Below, piece by piece: positions 16,534 to 22,471 of a DNA stretch of 64,000 bases. The stretch is taken from NCBI GenBank assembly GCA_021780815.1, contig JAJXYC010000002.1, positions 117,257-181,256 of the forward strand, read 5' to 3'. Both the position numbers and the translations under genes were made by a program. Position 1 is the first letter of the stretch. Every line of letters begins with the position of its first letter. Source of the stretch: Bacteroidota bacterium (GTDB lineage: Bacteria > Bacteroidota > Ignavibacteria > Kapaibacteriales > UBA2268). The notes under the pieces are model-generated. The model saw nothing but the letters and a program-made list of their open reading frames with translations, made no database searches and was not told the DNA's origin.

Positions 16534-18624
16534 ATGGATTTAAGCAAAGTAAGAAATATAGGAATAGCCGCACATATTGATTCAGGGAAAACGACTTTAA
16601 GCGAAAGAATATTGTTTTATACTGGAAGAATACATCAAATAATAGAAGTAAGGAGCAAGACAGGTGCTGGTCCGACAATGGATTCTATGGATTTAGAACG
16701 TGAGAAAGGTATTACAATCCAAAGTGCGGCAACATATTGCCAATGGAAAGATTATCAAATTAATTTAATAGATACGCCAGGTCATATAGATTTTACAGTT
16801 GAAGTAGAAAGGGCATTACGTGTATTAGATGGAGCAGTATTAGTTCTTTGCGGTGTAGCAGGAGTTCAAAGTCAATCAATTACAGTTGACAGACAAATGC
16901 GTCGCTATAATGTTCCTCGTATTGCTTTTATAAATAAAGTTGATAGAGCCGGAGCTAATCCTGATAAAGTAGTTAATCAACTTGAAGAAAAATTAGGTCA
17001 TAAACCAGTTCTTATAACAATGCCAATAGGTCTTGAAGACAATTTTGAGGGTGTTGTAGATTTATTGAAAATGAAAGCAATTTATTATGAAGGTGCGAAT
17101 GGAGAAAATGTAGTAGAAAAAGATATTCCCGCACATCTTTTAAATGAAGCAAAATTAAGAAAACAAAAATTAATAGAGCGTTTAGCAGATTATGATGATT
17201 TTGTTGCTGAGAAATTTTTAGAAGAGGCAGAAATTACACAAGATGAGTTAATTCAAGCAATACGTCGTGCTACAATTGCAATGCACATCACTCCAGTATT
17301 TATTGGTACAGCAAAGCAAAATAAAGGCGTTCAAACTATGCTCGATGGTGTAGGATTGTTTTTGCCTGCTCCTAATGAAATCAAAAATAAAGCATTAGAC
17401 CTTGATGATAATGAAAACGAAATTATTTTGAAAAGTGATTCCGAGTTGCCAACAGTCGCCCTTGCTTTCAAATTAGAAGACGGCAAATACGGACAATTGA
17501 CTTATATGAGAATTTACCAAGGCAAAATTACTAAGGGAGATAATCTCGTTAATATTCAAAATAAGAAGAAAATCAAAGTACCTCGTATTGTAAAGATGCA
17601 TGCCTCAAATATGGAAGATATGGAAACAGCTTATGCAGGTGATATTATTGGTATGTTCGGTGTTGATTGTTCATCAGGCGATACTTTTACAGATGGACGA
17701 GTTAATTATTCTATGACATCAATGCATATTCCGACACCTGTAATTGAATTGTCTATTATGCCAAAAGAAAGAACGCAACAAGTTAATTTTTCAAAAGCTT
17801 TAAACCGTTTCCAAAAAGAAGATCCTACTTTTCAAGTGCATCGTGATGAAGAAAGTGGTGAAACTTTAGTTAAGGGAATGGGAGAGTTGCATTTAGAAAT
17901 TTACATTGAACGCATCAAAAGAGAATATAATACCGAAGTAATTGTTGGTAAACCAAAGGTAGCTTACCGAGAAACAATTACACAAAAAGCAACATTTGAT
18001 TATACTCACAAAAAACAATCAGGTGGTGCAGGACAATTCGCACGAGTTGCTGGTTTTATAGAACCTCTTACAATACCGAACGAAATGCACTATGAATTCT
18101 CAAACCAAATTGTTGGTGGTGTAATTCCAAAAGAGTATATACCAGCGTGTGATAAAGGATTTCAAGAACAATTGCTCGAAGGTATCTTGATTAAACAACC
18201 TGTTGTTGATGTAAAAGTTGCAATAAACGATGGAAGTACACACCCTGTGGACTCCTCTGAACTTGCGTTCAAATTAGCCTCAAAGCATGCTATAAAAGAA
18301 GCTGTTGCAAAAGCAAAACCTATAATTTTAGAACCTATTATGAAGTTGGAAGTTGCTGTCCCAGAAGAATTTCAAGGTATTGTTATTGGTCAACTGAACC
18401 AAAGACGTGGTGTTATTGTAAATACTTTACTTGAATCTAAATATGTTACTGTCGAAGCAGAAGTTCCATTACGTGAAATGTTCGGATATTCTTCTGATAT
18501 AAGAAGTGTAACACAAGGTAAAGGTGAGTTTACAATGGAATTTCTGAAATACCAATCTGTTCCTAAATCTATTGAAGAAGAAATTATCAAAGATTTTAAA
18601 GAGCGTGAATCTAACAAAAAATAG
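16534..18624 (+). CDS. fusA: elongation factor G, mitochondrial/spd type
   Basis: A 696-residue translational GTPase that moves tRNA and mRNA through the ribosome. GTPase motifs are [22 protein letters not shown] and FINKVD. Domain IV/V markers are [15 protein letters not shown] and [13 protein letters not shown]. The switch I region reads [20 protein letters not shown] and continues with [10 protein letters not shown]. This is the form found in mitochondrial EF-G1 and the related bacterial spdEFG1, whereas ordinary bacterial EF-G has the GxxxMDWMxQEQERGITI pattern. In spd-type bacteria EFG1 is known for translocation and a second EF-G for recycling. Such a second copy is not in this window. 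The gene stands alone between AT-rich gaps. Confidence 0.93.
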
Positions 18625-18657
18625 CAACAAACTTTAAATTAGGCTTTGTTTTACTTT

Positions 18658-19656
18658 TTAATTTATAAGATTCATTTCAATCATTTTTTCTGCAATTTGG
18701 ATAGCGTTAGTTGCGGCACCTTTGCGAATATTATTTGCCACAACCCACATCCAAAAGGCATTATTTATTGATAACTCTTTACGTATGCGTCCAACAAATA
18801 CTTCATCTTTATCTTGAGTCATTGCAGGAGTTGGATAATCATCTTTATGCAAATCGTCAATAATAATCAAATTTTCTTGTGTATTTAATTTTTCGATTAA
18901 ATCACTTTTCTGAAAATCTTTTTCCGTTTCAATGTAAACCGTTTCGGAGTGACCAACTTCAAAAGGTAATCTAACGCAAGTAACTGATATGGGCAAATTA
19001 GGATTATGCAACATTTTTCGTGTTTCATTAATCATCTTAATTTCTTCCACTGTCCAATCTTGTTGTTCTGCGGAAACAGGGTGAAAAAAGGCATTAGAAA
19101 AAATTTTGTGCTTATCGCCAACATCTTGTCCTAACATCTCTTTATGATATTTATCAAGTCCTTTTTGCCCCGCACCTGAAATCGATTGATAAGTCGAAAC
19201 GATAACTTTATTTAATCCAAAATTGTCAGAAATTGGTTTTAATGCCACTATTAATTGAATAGTTGAACAATTTGGGTTAGCAATAATGTTGTTATGCCAA
19301 CTTAAATCTTCTGGATTAACTTCTGGAACAACTAATGGAACATTTTCATCCATTCGCCAAGCAGAAGAATTGTCTATAACAATAGTTTTCTTTTGAGCAA
19401 ATATTGGAGCATATTGTTTACTAATTGCTCCACCAGCTGAAAATAAAGCAAAATCATAATTTTTTACTGTCTCTTCTTTTAATTCTTCAACAATAAAATT
19501 TTGCCCATTAAATTTGATTTCCTTGCCAGCAGAATTTTTGGAAGCAAAAAAAGTAATATTAGAAACAGGGAAATTACGTTCTTCCAAGACTTTAATAAAT
19601 GTTCGCCCCACTAATCCTGTTGTTCCTACAATTGCAATTTTAAAGTTACGTCCCAT
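18658..19656 (-). CDS. asd: aspartate-semialdehyde dehydrogenase
   Basis: A 332-residue enzyme that reduces aspartyl phosphate to aspartate semialdehyde, the branch point to lysine/diaminopimelate, methionine and threonine. The NADP-binding motif is VGTTGLVGRTF, the active-site Cys130 lies in ANPNCSTIQL, and substrate residues are in RLPFEVGHSETVYIE. The length is normal. lysA, the last enzyme of the DAP-lysine branch, lies 3 kb away. It converges with fusA with a 33-base gap. Confidence 0.95.
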   Translation of the reverse strand: MGRNFKIAIVGTTGLVGRTFIKVLEERNFPVSNITFFASKNSAGKEIKFNGQNFIVEELKEETVKNYDFALFSAGGAISKQYAPIFAQKKTIVIDNSSAWRMDENVPLVVPEVNPEDLSWHNNIIANPNCSTIQLIVALKPISDNFGLNKVIVSTYQSISGAGQKGLDKYHKEMLGQDVGDKHKIFSNAFFHPVSAEQQDWTVEEIKMINETRKMLHNPNLPISVTCVRLPFEVGHSETVYIETEKDFQKSDLIEKLNTQENLIIIDDLHKDDYPTPAMTQDKDEVFVGRIRKELSINNAFWMWVVANNIRKGAATNAIQIAEKMIEMNLIN

Positions 19657-19679
19657 ATTTAATAATTAATTTAAAGTTG

Positions 19680-19753
19680 TCGGAGTGACTGGACTCGAAC
19701 CAGCGACCCCTGCGTCCCGAACGCAGTACTCTAGCCAACTGAGCTACACTCCG
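19680..19753 (-). tRNA. tRNA-Pro (anticodon CGG)
   Basis: Read on the minus strand, a 7-bp acceptor stem (CGGAGTG with CACTCCG), a D arm, an anticodon stem CTGCG/CGCAG around TTCGGGA (anticodon CGG), and a T arm with loop TTCGAGT fold into a complete cloverleaf. The C1-G72 pair and A73 (position 19680) are the usual identity elements of bacterial tRNA-Pro. CCA is not encoded. The first ten bases overlap the end of tsaE. Confidence 0.95.
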
Positions 19754-20211
19754 AATTCAAATTTCCTGGGTAATTCAAATTCAAAATAACGAATATTATC
19801 TTCTTCTTTATCAGATTTAATCGTTATTTTTATTGCTTGTTGTGGTATTTGTGTCGTCTTTTCTGCCCATTCAATTAATGTAATTGCATTTTCATCGTTG
19901 AGATATTCTTGAAAACCAATTTCGTTTAATTCTATTTCTTTTTCAATTCTATATAAATCTATATGATAAATAGATAAAGATTCTTTCCCTGTTACTGATG
20001 AAGTATATTTATTCACAATTGTAAATGTAGGACTTGTAATAATTTCTTCTACTTCAAAATAATCGCATATCCCTTTAACAAATTCAGTTTTACCAGAACC
20101 TAAATCCCCATACATAGCCACTATATCGCCTGCTACAAGGTTCTTTGCAAATACTTTGCCTATATGCTCGGTTTCTATTTCGCTCTTTGTTATGATTTTT
20201 ACAATTTCCAT
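19744..20211 (-). CDS. tsaE: tRNA threonylcarbamoyladenosine biosynthesis ATPase TsaE
   Basis: A 155-residue P-loop protein, part of the TsaB-TsaD-TsaE complex that makes t6A37 in ANN-decoding tRNAs. Walker A is GDLGSGKTEFVKG. Family motifs SPTFTIVNKYT (Thr/switch region) and IYHIDLYRIEKE follow, and LIEWAEKT is the typical late motif. The length is normal. The stop codon TAG falls inside the tRNA-Pro gene (its bases 8-10), so the two genes overlap by ten bases on the same strand and may share one transcript. Confidence 0.95.
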   Translation of the reverse strand: MEIVKIITKSEIETEHIGKVFAKNLVAGDIVAMYGDLGSGKTEFVKGICDYFEVEEIITSPTFTIVNKYTSSVTGKESLSIYHIDLYRIEKEIELNEIGFQEYLNDENAITLIEWAEKTTQIPQQAIKITIKSDKEEDNIRYFEFELPRKFEFGV

Positions 20212-20365
20212 AAATATAAAATTACAAAATTAATTTAAATAAGAGAATTAACAAAAGAATATTTGCTTAAAGAAAACTATAATATAAATTAAATATATTT
20301 AATTTACGAATTGTTACAATAAAATTTATAGAAAAATCGTATTTTGAAGTATTTGAAATTACAAT

Positions 20366-21241
20366 ATGGAAAAATCTCTTACCGAAACAAAAGAAAAAAG
20401 ATTAGTTGCATTAAGTTCAGTATTTGCCGCAATTTTGTTAACTGTATTTAAATTAATAGTAGGTATTTTAACAGGCAGTTTAGGTATTCTATCGGAAGCA
20501 TTGCATTCAGGGTTAGATTTAGTTGCCGCAATTATGACTTTCTTTGCTGTGAAAATTGCTGATAAACCTGCCGATGAAGAACATCAATATGGACATGGCA
20601 AAGTTGAAAATATTTCTGCACTATTTGAAACTTTTTTATTGTTAATCACTTGTGTCTGGATTATTTATGAAGCAGTTAATAGATTAACCAGTGGACATAC
20701 AGACATTATTGTTAATTCTTGGAGTTTTATTGTTATTGCCACTGCTATTGTTGTTGATTTTACTCGCTCTCGTGCTTTAATGAAATATGCTAAAAAGTAT
20801 AACAGTAGTGCTTTAGAAGCTGATGCTTTACATTTTTCCACTGATATTTTAAGTTCATTTGTAGTATTATTGGGTTTGTTTGGTGCTTTTCTTGGCTATA
20901 ATTCAATTGATACTATTGCAGGATTAATTGTTGCTGTTATTGTAATTTTTATTAGCTACAAGTTAGGTAAAAAATCAGTTGATAGCCTCGTTGATAAATC
21001 ACCTGCAAATTTGAAATCTAAAATTTTACTTTTAGCACAGCAAATGCCTCAAATTCACAATGTTCATAATATTCGTAGCCGTGAATCAGGTTCAACTATC
21101 TTGATTGATTTAATTATTGAAATTAATTCGGATTTGTCAGTTTCGGAAGGTCATAGTATTGCTGATAACTTTGAAGCGATTATTACCAAAGAATACCCAA
21201 ATTCCGATATTAATATTCATATAGAACCATTCGCAAAATAA
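20366..21241 (+). CDS. cation diffusion facilitator family transporter
   Basis: A 291-residue CDF antiporter that exports a divalent metal (Zn, Fe or Mn) in exchange for protons. Six membrane helices occupy residues about 14-200. The metal site is visible as SEALHSGLDL in helix 2 and EADALHFSTDIL in helix 5, an HxxxD pair as in the zinc/iron exporters FieF and YiiP. The C-terminal 85 residues form the usual ferredoxin-like cytoplasmic domain. It stands alone, 134 bases before prfB. Metal specificity is not certain. Confidence 0.92.
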   Translation: MEKSLTETKEKRLVALSSVFAAILLTVFKLIVGILTGSLGILSEALHSGLDLVAAIMTFFAVKIADKPADEEHQYGHGKVENISALFETFLLLITCVWIIYEAVNRLTSGHTDIIVNSWSFIVIATAIVVDFTRSRALMKYAKKYNSSALEADALHFSTDILSSFVVLLGLFGAFLGYNSIDTIAGLIVAVIVIFISYKLGKKSVDSLVDKSPANLKSKILLLAQQMPQIHNVHNIRSRESGSTILIDLIIEINSDLSVSEGHSIADNFEAIITKEYPNSDINIHIEPFAK

Positions 21242-21375: not shown

Positions 21376-22471
21376 ATGTTTGAACCGCAAAAACAACAAT
21401 TAAATGATTTAGGACAGAGACTTCTACAAATACGGAGGTATCTTTGACATTGATAATAGAGTTATTGAATTACAAGAAAAAGACAAATTAACCCATAACG
21501 AGACTTTTTGGAATAATCCAGAAGAAGCAAAAATAATTTTAAAAGAATTATCTAATTTGAAAAATTGGATAGAAAGTTACGAAAAAGTAAGTAATTTTTA
21601 TGAAGATATTTTAGCGCTGATTTCTTTGGCAGAAGAAGAAAATGATGCAACAATGGAAAATGAAATAAATACAGAATTACAATCTGCGATACAACAAATT
21701 GAAGAATTAGAAATAGAAGAATTGCTTTCAGGAGCGGACGATGATAAAACTGCACTTTTAACTATACATTCAGGAGCAGGTGGAACTGAGTCGCAAGATT
21801 GGTCAGAAATGCTTTTAAGAATGTATTCTCGTTGGGCTGAAAGGCATAATTTTAAAATATATTTGCTTGATGAACTTGAAGGTGATGGTGCGGGAATTAA
21901 ATCTGCTACTTTAGAAATACAAGGTAAATTTGCTTTTGGATTACTTAAAGGAGAAAGTGGTGTTCATCGTTTGGTAAGAATTTCACCTTTTGATGCAAAT
22001 GCAAGACGGCACACTTCTTTTGCTTCTGTTTATGTTTATCCTGAAATAGAAGATGATATTGAAATTGAAATTAACCCTGACGATATTGAAATGGATACTT
22101 TTCGCTCTGGTGGGAAAGGTGGACAAAACGTAAATAAAGTTGAGACTGCTGTCCGATTAAAACATATTCCAACAGGTATAGTCGTTGCTTGTCAGCAGGA
22201 AAGACACCAACTACAAAATCGTGAAAGAGCTATGAAAATGCTTAAATCAAGATTATATCAGCAAAAGAAGCAAGAAGAAGAAGCACGTAAAGCTGAGATC
22301 GAAGGTAAAAAAATGAAAATTGAATGGGGTAGCCAAATTCGCAGCTATGTATTTCAGCCTTATACTATGGTTAATGACCACCGCACAGAAATGAAAAAAA
22401 CTGATGTGCTTTCTGTTATGGATGGTAACATAGATGATTTCATTAAAGCTTTCTTGCTATTAAAAGATTAA
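21376..22471 (+). CDS. prfB: peptide chain release factor 2, expressed by programmed +1 frameshift
   Basis: RF2 terminates translation at UGA and UAA. The first 23 codons run from the ATG at 21376 to an in-frame TGA at 21445. A +1 shift at CTTTGAC (21442-21448) enters the second frame, which runs to 22471, for a total of about 364 residues, the normal RF2 length. The RF2 tripeptide SPF is in [12 protein letters not shown] and the catalytic GGQ in [13 protein letters not shown]. The first frame reads [14 protein letters not shown], like other RF2 N-termini. This is the classic autoregulatory arrangement, in which low RF2 favours frameshifting. lysA follows 40 bases downstream on the same strand. 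Confidence 0.95.
21434..21448 (+). promoter_or_regulatory. programmed +1 frameshift site of prfB
   Basis: An internal Shine-Dalgarno (GGAGGT) lies a few bases before CTT TGA C. The site matches the well-known RF2 frameshift signal: the internal SD pulls the ribosome, and the slow UGA lets the tRNA slip from CUU to UUU. Confidence 0.95.

Follow-up and report, generated by a model that had tools for sequence, protein, structure and literature searches.

A tsaE reading frame that ends inside the adjoining tRNA-Pro(CGG) gene in one genus of Bacteroidota

Background

When the stop codon of a protein-coding gene is built from bases of the tRNA gene that follows it, can a single transcript give both the protein and the tRNA, or does making one product destroy the other? 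This question is raised by a locus in the draft genome of a Bacteroidota bacterium (Ignavibacteria, Kapaibacteriales; GenBank assembly GCA_021780815.1, contig JAJXYC010000002.1), which was analysed within a stretch of 64,000 nucleotides (hereafter the window) and in which tsaE runs into the gene for tRNA-Pro(CGG), followed by asd. Here we describe the overlap, its occurrence in relatives and the constraints on the shared bases, and weigh the ways in which it may be expressed.

Results and discussion

The overlap between tsaE and tRNA-Pro(CGG)

The overlap is genuine, as the original prediction held: ARAGORN, Rfam RF00005 and the open reading frame coordinates agree both on the TAG formed by tRNA bases 8 to 10 and on the ten shared bases (Table 1). 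The 3' end of tsaE reads AAA TTT GAA TTC GGA GTG TAG, and the C of TTC is base 1 of the tRNA. The TsaE product contains the P-loop motif GDLGSGKT and scores 118.3 bits against TIGR00150 (cut-off 60.1) and 131.1 bits against PF02367 (cut-off 26.6). The tRNA, which matches RF00005 at 19753..19680 with 62.9 bits (gathering threshold 29), shows the CGG anticodon and 21 of 21 cloverleaf pairs; CCA is not encoded in the predicted gene, and its 3' end as given by ARAGORN lies one base beyond the range 19680-20211 considered originally. The start of asd follows the tRNA after a gap of 22 nt. At the other side, the apparent unit opens with tsaE, whose upstream neighbour is divergent.

Table 1. Positions in the window of the features discussed in the text
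Feature	Position	Strand	Basis
tsaE (t6A37 biosynthesis ATPase subunit), 155 codons plus TAG	20211..19744	minus	open reading frame list
tsaE stop codon TAG, corresponding to tRNA U8-A9-G10	19746..19744	minus	sequence, reading frame and tRNA coordinates
Same-strand overlap, 10 nt (last 10 bases of tsaE, first 10 of tRNA-Pro)	19753..19744	minus	sequence, reading frame and tRNA coordinates
tRNA-Pro(CGG)	19753..19679	minus	ARAGORN
asd (aspartate-semialdehyde dehydrogenase)	19656..18658	minus	TIGR01296, 388.7 bits (cut-off 324.2)
Bacteroidota-type promoter-like site TTG-N19-TAATTTTG, 5' of tsaE	20225..20254	minus	regular expression without shuffle control, suggestive only

Distribution among relatives

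Conservation in related genomes had been proposed as a check, and it holds within the genus. In a sample of 60 genomes including the window's own, tsaE was matched in 57, and all 57 gene ends could be read; the overlap of exactly ten bases is identical in the five genus members examined (G000 to G004; drafts of 20 to 540 contigs) and absent from the other 52. It is also absent from seven further genomes of the family, which comprises 54 genomes, 51 of them with tsaE, of which 41 were examined. In total, the overlap thus occurs at 5 of 64 tsaE loci and at none of the 59 outside the genus. Among the best 80 of at least 577 passing loci named tsaE, one of which left its contig before any stop, the sole overlap (L145) lies on the same contig as that of G003. 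The TsaE proteins of the other four genus members are 56-62% identical to that of the window. In one family member tsaE is represented by two adjoining pieces and is possibly frameshifted (G074:C6:87965-88385).

The gene order reaches beyond the overlap. In four of the five genus members asd lies within 1.5 kb after the tRNA; in G003 (L003) other sequence follows tRNA-Pro and asd is found on another contig, so that the link between tRNA and asd is absent there while the overlap of tsaE and tRNA is present. In G034, which belongs to a sister genus, tsaE ends with TAA, tRNA-Pro(CGG) follows 348 nt further and then asd, which indicates that the gene order either predates the overlap or outlived it. 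Local alignment of the sequence behind the tsaE stop in G034 gave no sign of a remnant tRNA, as 494 of 500 and 404 of 500 shuffles scored as high. The TsaE tail past the last conserved arginine measures 14 residues in the genus and in G034, and 5 to 26 residues in 62 other rows from 58 genomes (5 to 13 in 48 of the 62); the equal length in G034 is a weak hint that the overlap may predate the genus. The asd match of G034 (L300) was reported with one in-frame TAA. In G018, from the same genus as G034 and rated 94% complete, tsaE, asd and tRNA-Pro(CGG) all went undetected, as if the whole segment had been lost or fell into an assembly gap.

Constraints on the shared bases

In four of the five genus members the overlapping tRNA is intact with 21 of 21 stem pairs. 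Pairs 4-71 and 5-70 of the acceptor stem (numbered by alignment column) have changed on both sides, and their 5' bases belong to the tsaE frame, where the variation at pair 4-71 is silent (GGA or GGG) and that at pair 5-70 gives GTG or ATG, with V or M as the last residue. The underlying alignment is a small sample of six tRNA sequences, including the non-overlapping tRNA of G034 and a decayed copy from G001, with standard pairs in 97.6% of the cells. Five measures of covariation were compared with shuffles: the covariation score, the percentage of paired cells and the number of cells altered on both sides each exceeded 500 of 500, the number of pairs altered on both sides exceeded 494 of 500, and the further pair types did not rise above the shuffled sets, of which 479 of 500 scored as high. 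The two-sided changes persist when the four intact overlapping tRNAs are taken alone. Because all stem pairs are kept in these four and the two-sided changes fall on shared bases, these bases look constrained both as the end of tsaE and as a tRNA stem. The unconstrained minimum-energy fold is the cloverleaf for the tRNAs of G002, G004 and G034, and is not for those of the window's genome and G003; a T precedes C1 of the tRNA in each of the five genus members.

The fifth member, G001, carries a tRNA in decay beside tsaE (L006/L120): the CGG anticodon is lost, three stem pairs are broken so that 18 of 21 remain, an extra base is present, and ARAGORN calls the gene as tRNA-Thr(AGT). Its tsaE nevertheless ends at the same TAG. 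Another tRNA-Pro(CGG) was not found in this draft of 540 contigs with 6% contamination, for which an absence is not firm. The overlap has thus outlived the decay of the tRNA, and its retention in G001 is independent of any regulatory competition between the two products, which speaks for passive retention.

tRNA bases 8 to 10 as a stop codon

TAG occupies bases 8 to 10 in 23 of the 40 tRNAs of the window's genome, so that tRNA genes constitute a supply of ready-made stop codons. Only 1 of the 40, tRNA-Pro(CGG), is entered by an upstream frame, the test being an ATG, GTG or TTG start at least 180 nt ahead of the tRNA and a frame running into it. A stop-free frame of 78 codons enters the TAG at bases 8 to 10 of a tRNA-Gly GCC in the same genome (L067) and has no start codon at least 180 nt upstream. 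In a phylum sample of 129 distinct tRNAs from 70 loci, collected with a pattern requiring TAG at the start of the D arm, three upstream frames reaching at least 180 nt ahead of the tRNA were detected; they end 351, 38 and 10 bases past the tRNA start, so that one of the three stops at bases 8 to 10. Since none of the three candidate frames matches Pfam, a second case of a stop at these bases is not established. A separate count among 89 distinct tRNAs, each preceded by at least 400 nt of sequence, returned five such frames, which are the five tsaE cases.

Comparison with known systems

The closest bacterial precedent among the matches listed is the overlap of selB with selC. In the accessible part of that study (Mukai 2021; PMC8124441), tRNA-Sec genes (selC) are described that are nested in or partly overlap selB in Alphaproteobacteria, Dyella/Luteibacter and Nitrospirae, the selB stop of Dyella/Luteibacter lying at tRNA-Sec bases 46-48, and it is put forward as a hypothesis that tRNA processing produces a non-stop mRNA, which would lower expression of the protein, and thereby alternative expression. 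As far as that text goes, the likeness is considerable: in both systems a frame on the same strand enters the downstream tRNA, with the stop inside the tRNA (for selB in Dyella/Luteibacter), the arrangement is kept in some lineages and lost in others, remnant tRNAs occur, and a non-stop mRNA is predicted. Judged by a protein frame that enters a tRNA and stops inside or after it, the tsaE/tRNA-Pro locus belongs to the same type, formed here by another pair of genes. The selB stop, however, lies at bases 46-48 or past the tRNA in the cases described there, whereas that of tsaE is U8-A9-G10 and its overlap only 10 nt long. Furthermore, SelB binds the overlapping tRNA, whereas no tie between TsaE and tRNA-Pro is known from the accessible sources. 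According to the available portions of two papers, the t6A site is A37 of tRNAs that decode ANN codons (PMC9654439, PMC4330362). The anticodon loop TTCGGGA of tRNA-Pro(CGG) has G at position 37; it is thus not a t6A substrate, there is no obvious feedback, and in this respect TsaE does not act on the tRNA that it overlaps.

Overlaps of protein and tRNA genes, with alternative expression suggested, are also mentioned for compact mitochondrial genomes in the accessible part of the selB study (PMC8124441, citing PMC4829271), and there, too, some bases belong both to a tRNA and to a protein gene. Unlike these, the genome considered here measures 2.6 Mb. Completion of the stop by poly(A) as in mitochondria was also considered and rejected, because in all five species the cut codon would read TTA or ATA and added A residues thus give no stop.

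tRNA genes beside protein genes occur in ordinary bacterial mRNA-tRNA operons such as tRNA-tufB of E. coli. The locus shares with them a tRNA beside protein genes in what is apparently one unit, but in operons of the tRNA-tufB type, to our knowledge, the stop of the upstream gene does not lie inside the tRNA. The literature consulted, mostly without subscription papers, contained no report of a tsaE/tRNA-Pro overlap among the matches listed.

Expression and maintenance of the overlap

The reading that we consider probable is that of a passive overlap, fixed in the lineage and expressed from one transcript which is translated first and cut later. A single transcript would begin 5' of tsaE and span tRNA-Pro and asd, and ribosomes trailing RNA polymerase would arrive at the UAG while the tRNA is unfinished or is kept open by a terminating ribosome. 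A ribosome that terminates at the UAG covers part of the tRNA, and folding of the tRNA would thereby be delayed. The tRNA would fold next and RNase P would cut ahead of C1, by which the tsaE part would lose its last 10 nt including the stop and asd would be released on its own short-leader mRNA. Ribosomes stalled on the non-stop tsaE message would presumably be rescued by tmRNA-SmpB and the fragment would decay. SmpB and the RNase P RNA are each encoded in all five genus genomes, and tmRNA was found above the cut-off in four of them, the window's genome included, and not in G004, a draft of 150 contigs. The overlap itself would be a by-product of close packing, and as the tRNA supplies a ready-made stop, loss of the original tsaE stop would have done little harm. 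TsaE output may be mildly capped as a consequence, though not necessarily under selection.

The original prediction had stated that processing removes the stop codon and that each transcript can therefore give only one of the products. The former stands by geometry if there is one transcript, and co-transcription is what we infer. The latter is too strong: a ribosome can reach the UAG ahead of tRNA folding and cleavage, translation can thus come first, and one molecule can yield TsaE and then the tRNA, so that a strict either/or fails. A promoter and a terminator separating the two genes had been named as evidence against such coupling. No terminator-like site was found within 18500-20500, and the eight sigma-70-like matches in this region remain at chance level (9.5 +/- 3.0 in shuffles). 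One of the eight, a weak match on the minus strand at 19957-19929, lies inside tsaE and is what can be adduced for independent transcription, in which the tRNA-Pro promoter would be situated within tsaE, most tsaE transcripts would stay uncut and the overlap would have little effect on expression. We regard this as rather doubtful, considering not only the chance frequency of such matches but also that any tsaE transcript reaching the stop includes the tRNA start, and that the Bacteroidota-type pattern (searched as a regular expression without shuffle control) is absent inside tsaE in all five members and present 5' of tsaE in three, the window's genome included; the consensus behind this pattern is the one that we take to apply in Bacteroidota.

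A regulated alternative, in which translation of the last part of tsaE would be in competition with tRNA folding and RNase P cleavage, as a selected switch or cap that balances TsaE against tRNA-Pro, would agree with the geometric destruction of the stop by cleavage, with the exact ten-base overlap in the five genus members examined and with the covariation of the stem within the shared bases. It seems unlikely, however, given the missing functional link to a tRNA with G37, the persistence of the overlap beside the decayed tRNA of G001, and its limitation to one genus among the 64 tsaE loci. A passive overlap would moreover be expected to be conserved as well, since neither the tRNA bases nor the stop can be dispensed with. 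One point that counts against the passive reading is that the overlap has been kept across species with such divergent TsaEs, which could reflect selection for coupling. A more specific version, which we consider quite unlikely, is a selected one-way timer: each tsaE transcript would give TsaE until RNase P frees the tRNA, tmRNA would then tag the remaining ribosomes, and output would depend on how fast translation is relative to tRNA maturation; under the same proposal the conserved U8-A9-G10 of many tRNAs may act in other lineages as a built-in stop for the genes upstream of them, overlooked by annotation pipelines. That the overlap is an artefact of assembly or of a spurious tRNA or tsaE end is highly improbable. 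The five genomes are drafts and the tRNA of G001 is degenerate, but the same junction recurs in five separate genomes, tsaE and the tRNA pass curated cut-offs, and the stem changes are compensated.

The locus offers a clean natural case in which one stretch of RNA has to serve as the close of an mRNA and also as a tRNA acceptor stem; compensated changes can be seen in either reading, and one relative carries a decayed tRNA. The locus would also allow the alternative expression idea developed for selB/selC to be tested where a known tie between protein and tRNA is lacking. Gene callers may drop or trim coding genes that touch tRNAs, and an annotation made in this way could lose even a widespread gene such as tsaE.

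A neighbouring gene in the window

Elsewhere in the window, an RF2-like prfB (PF03462 and PF00472) is encoded on the plus strand at 21380-22471. A short upstream frame ends in ...CGGAGGTATCTTTGAC, which resembles what we take to be the RF2 frameshift site, and the gene seems to have the customary programmed +1 frameshift, which is of a known kind.
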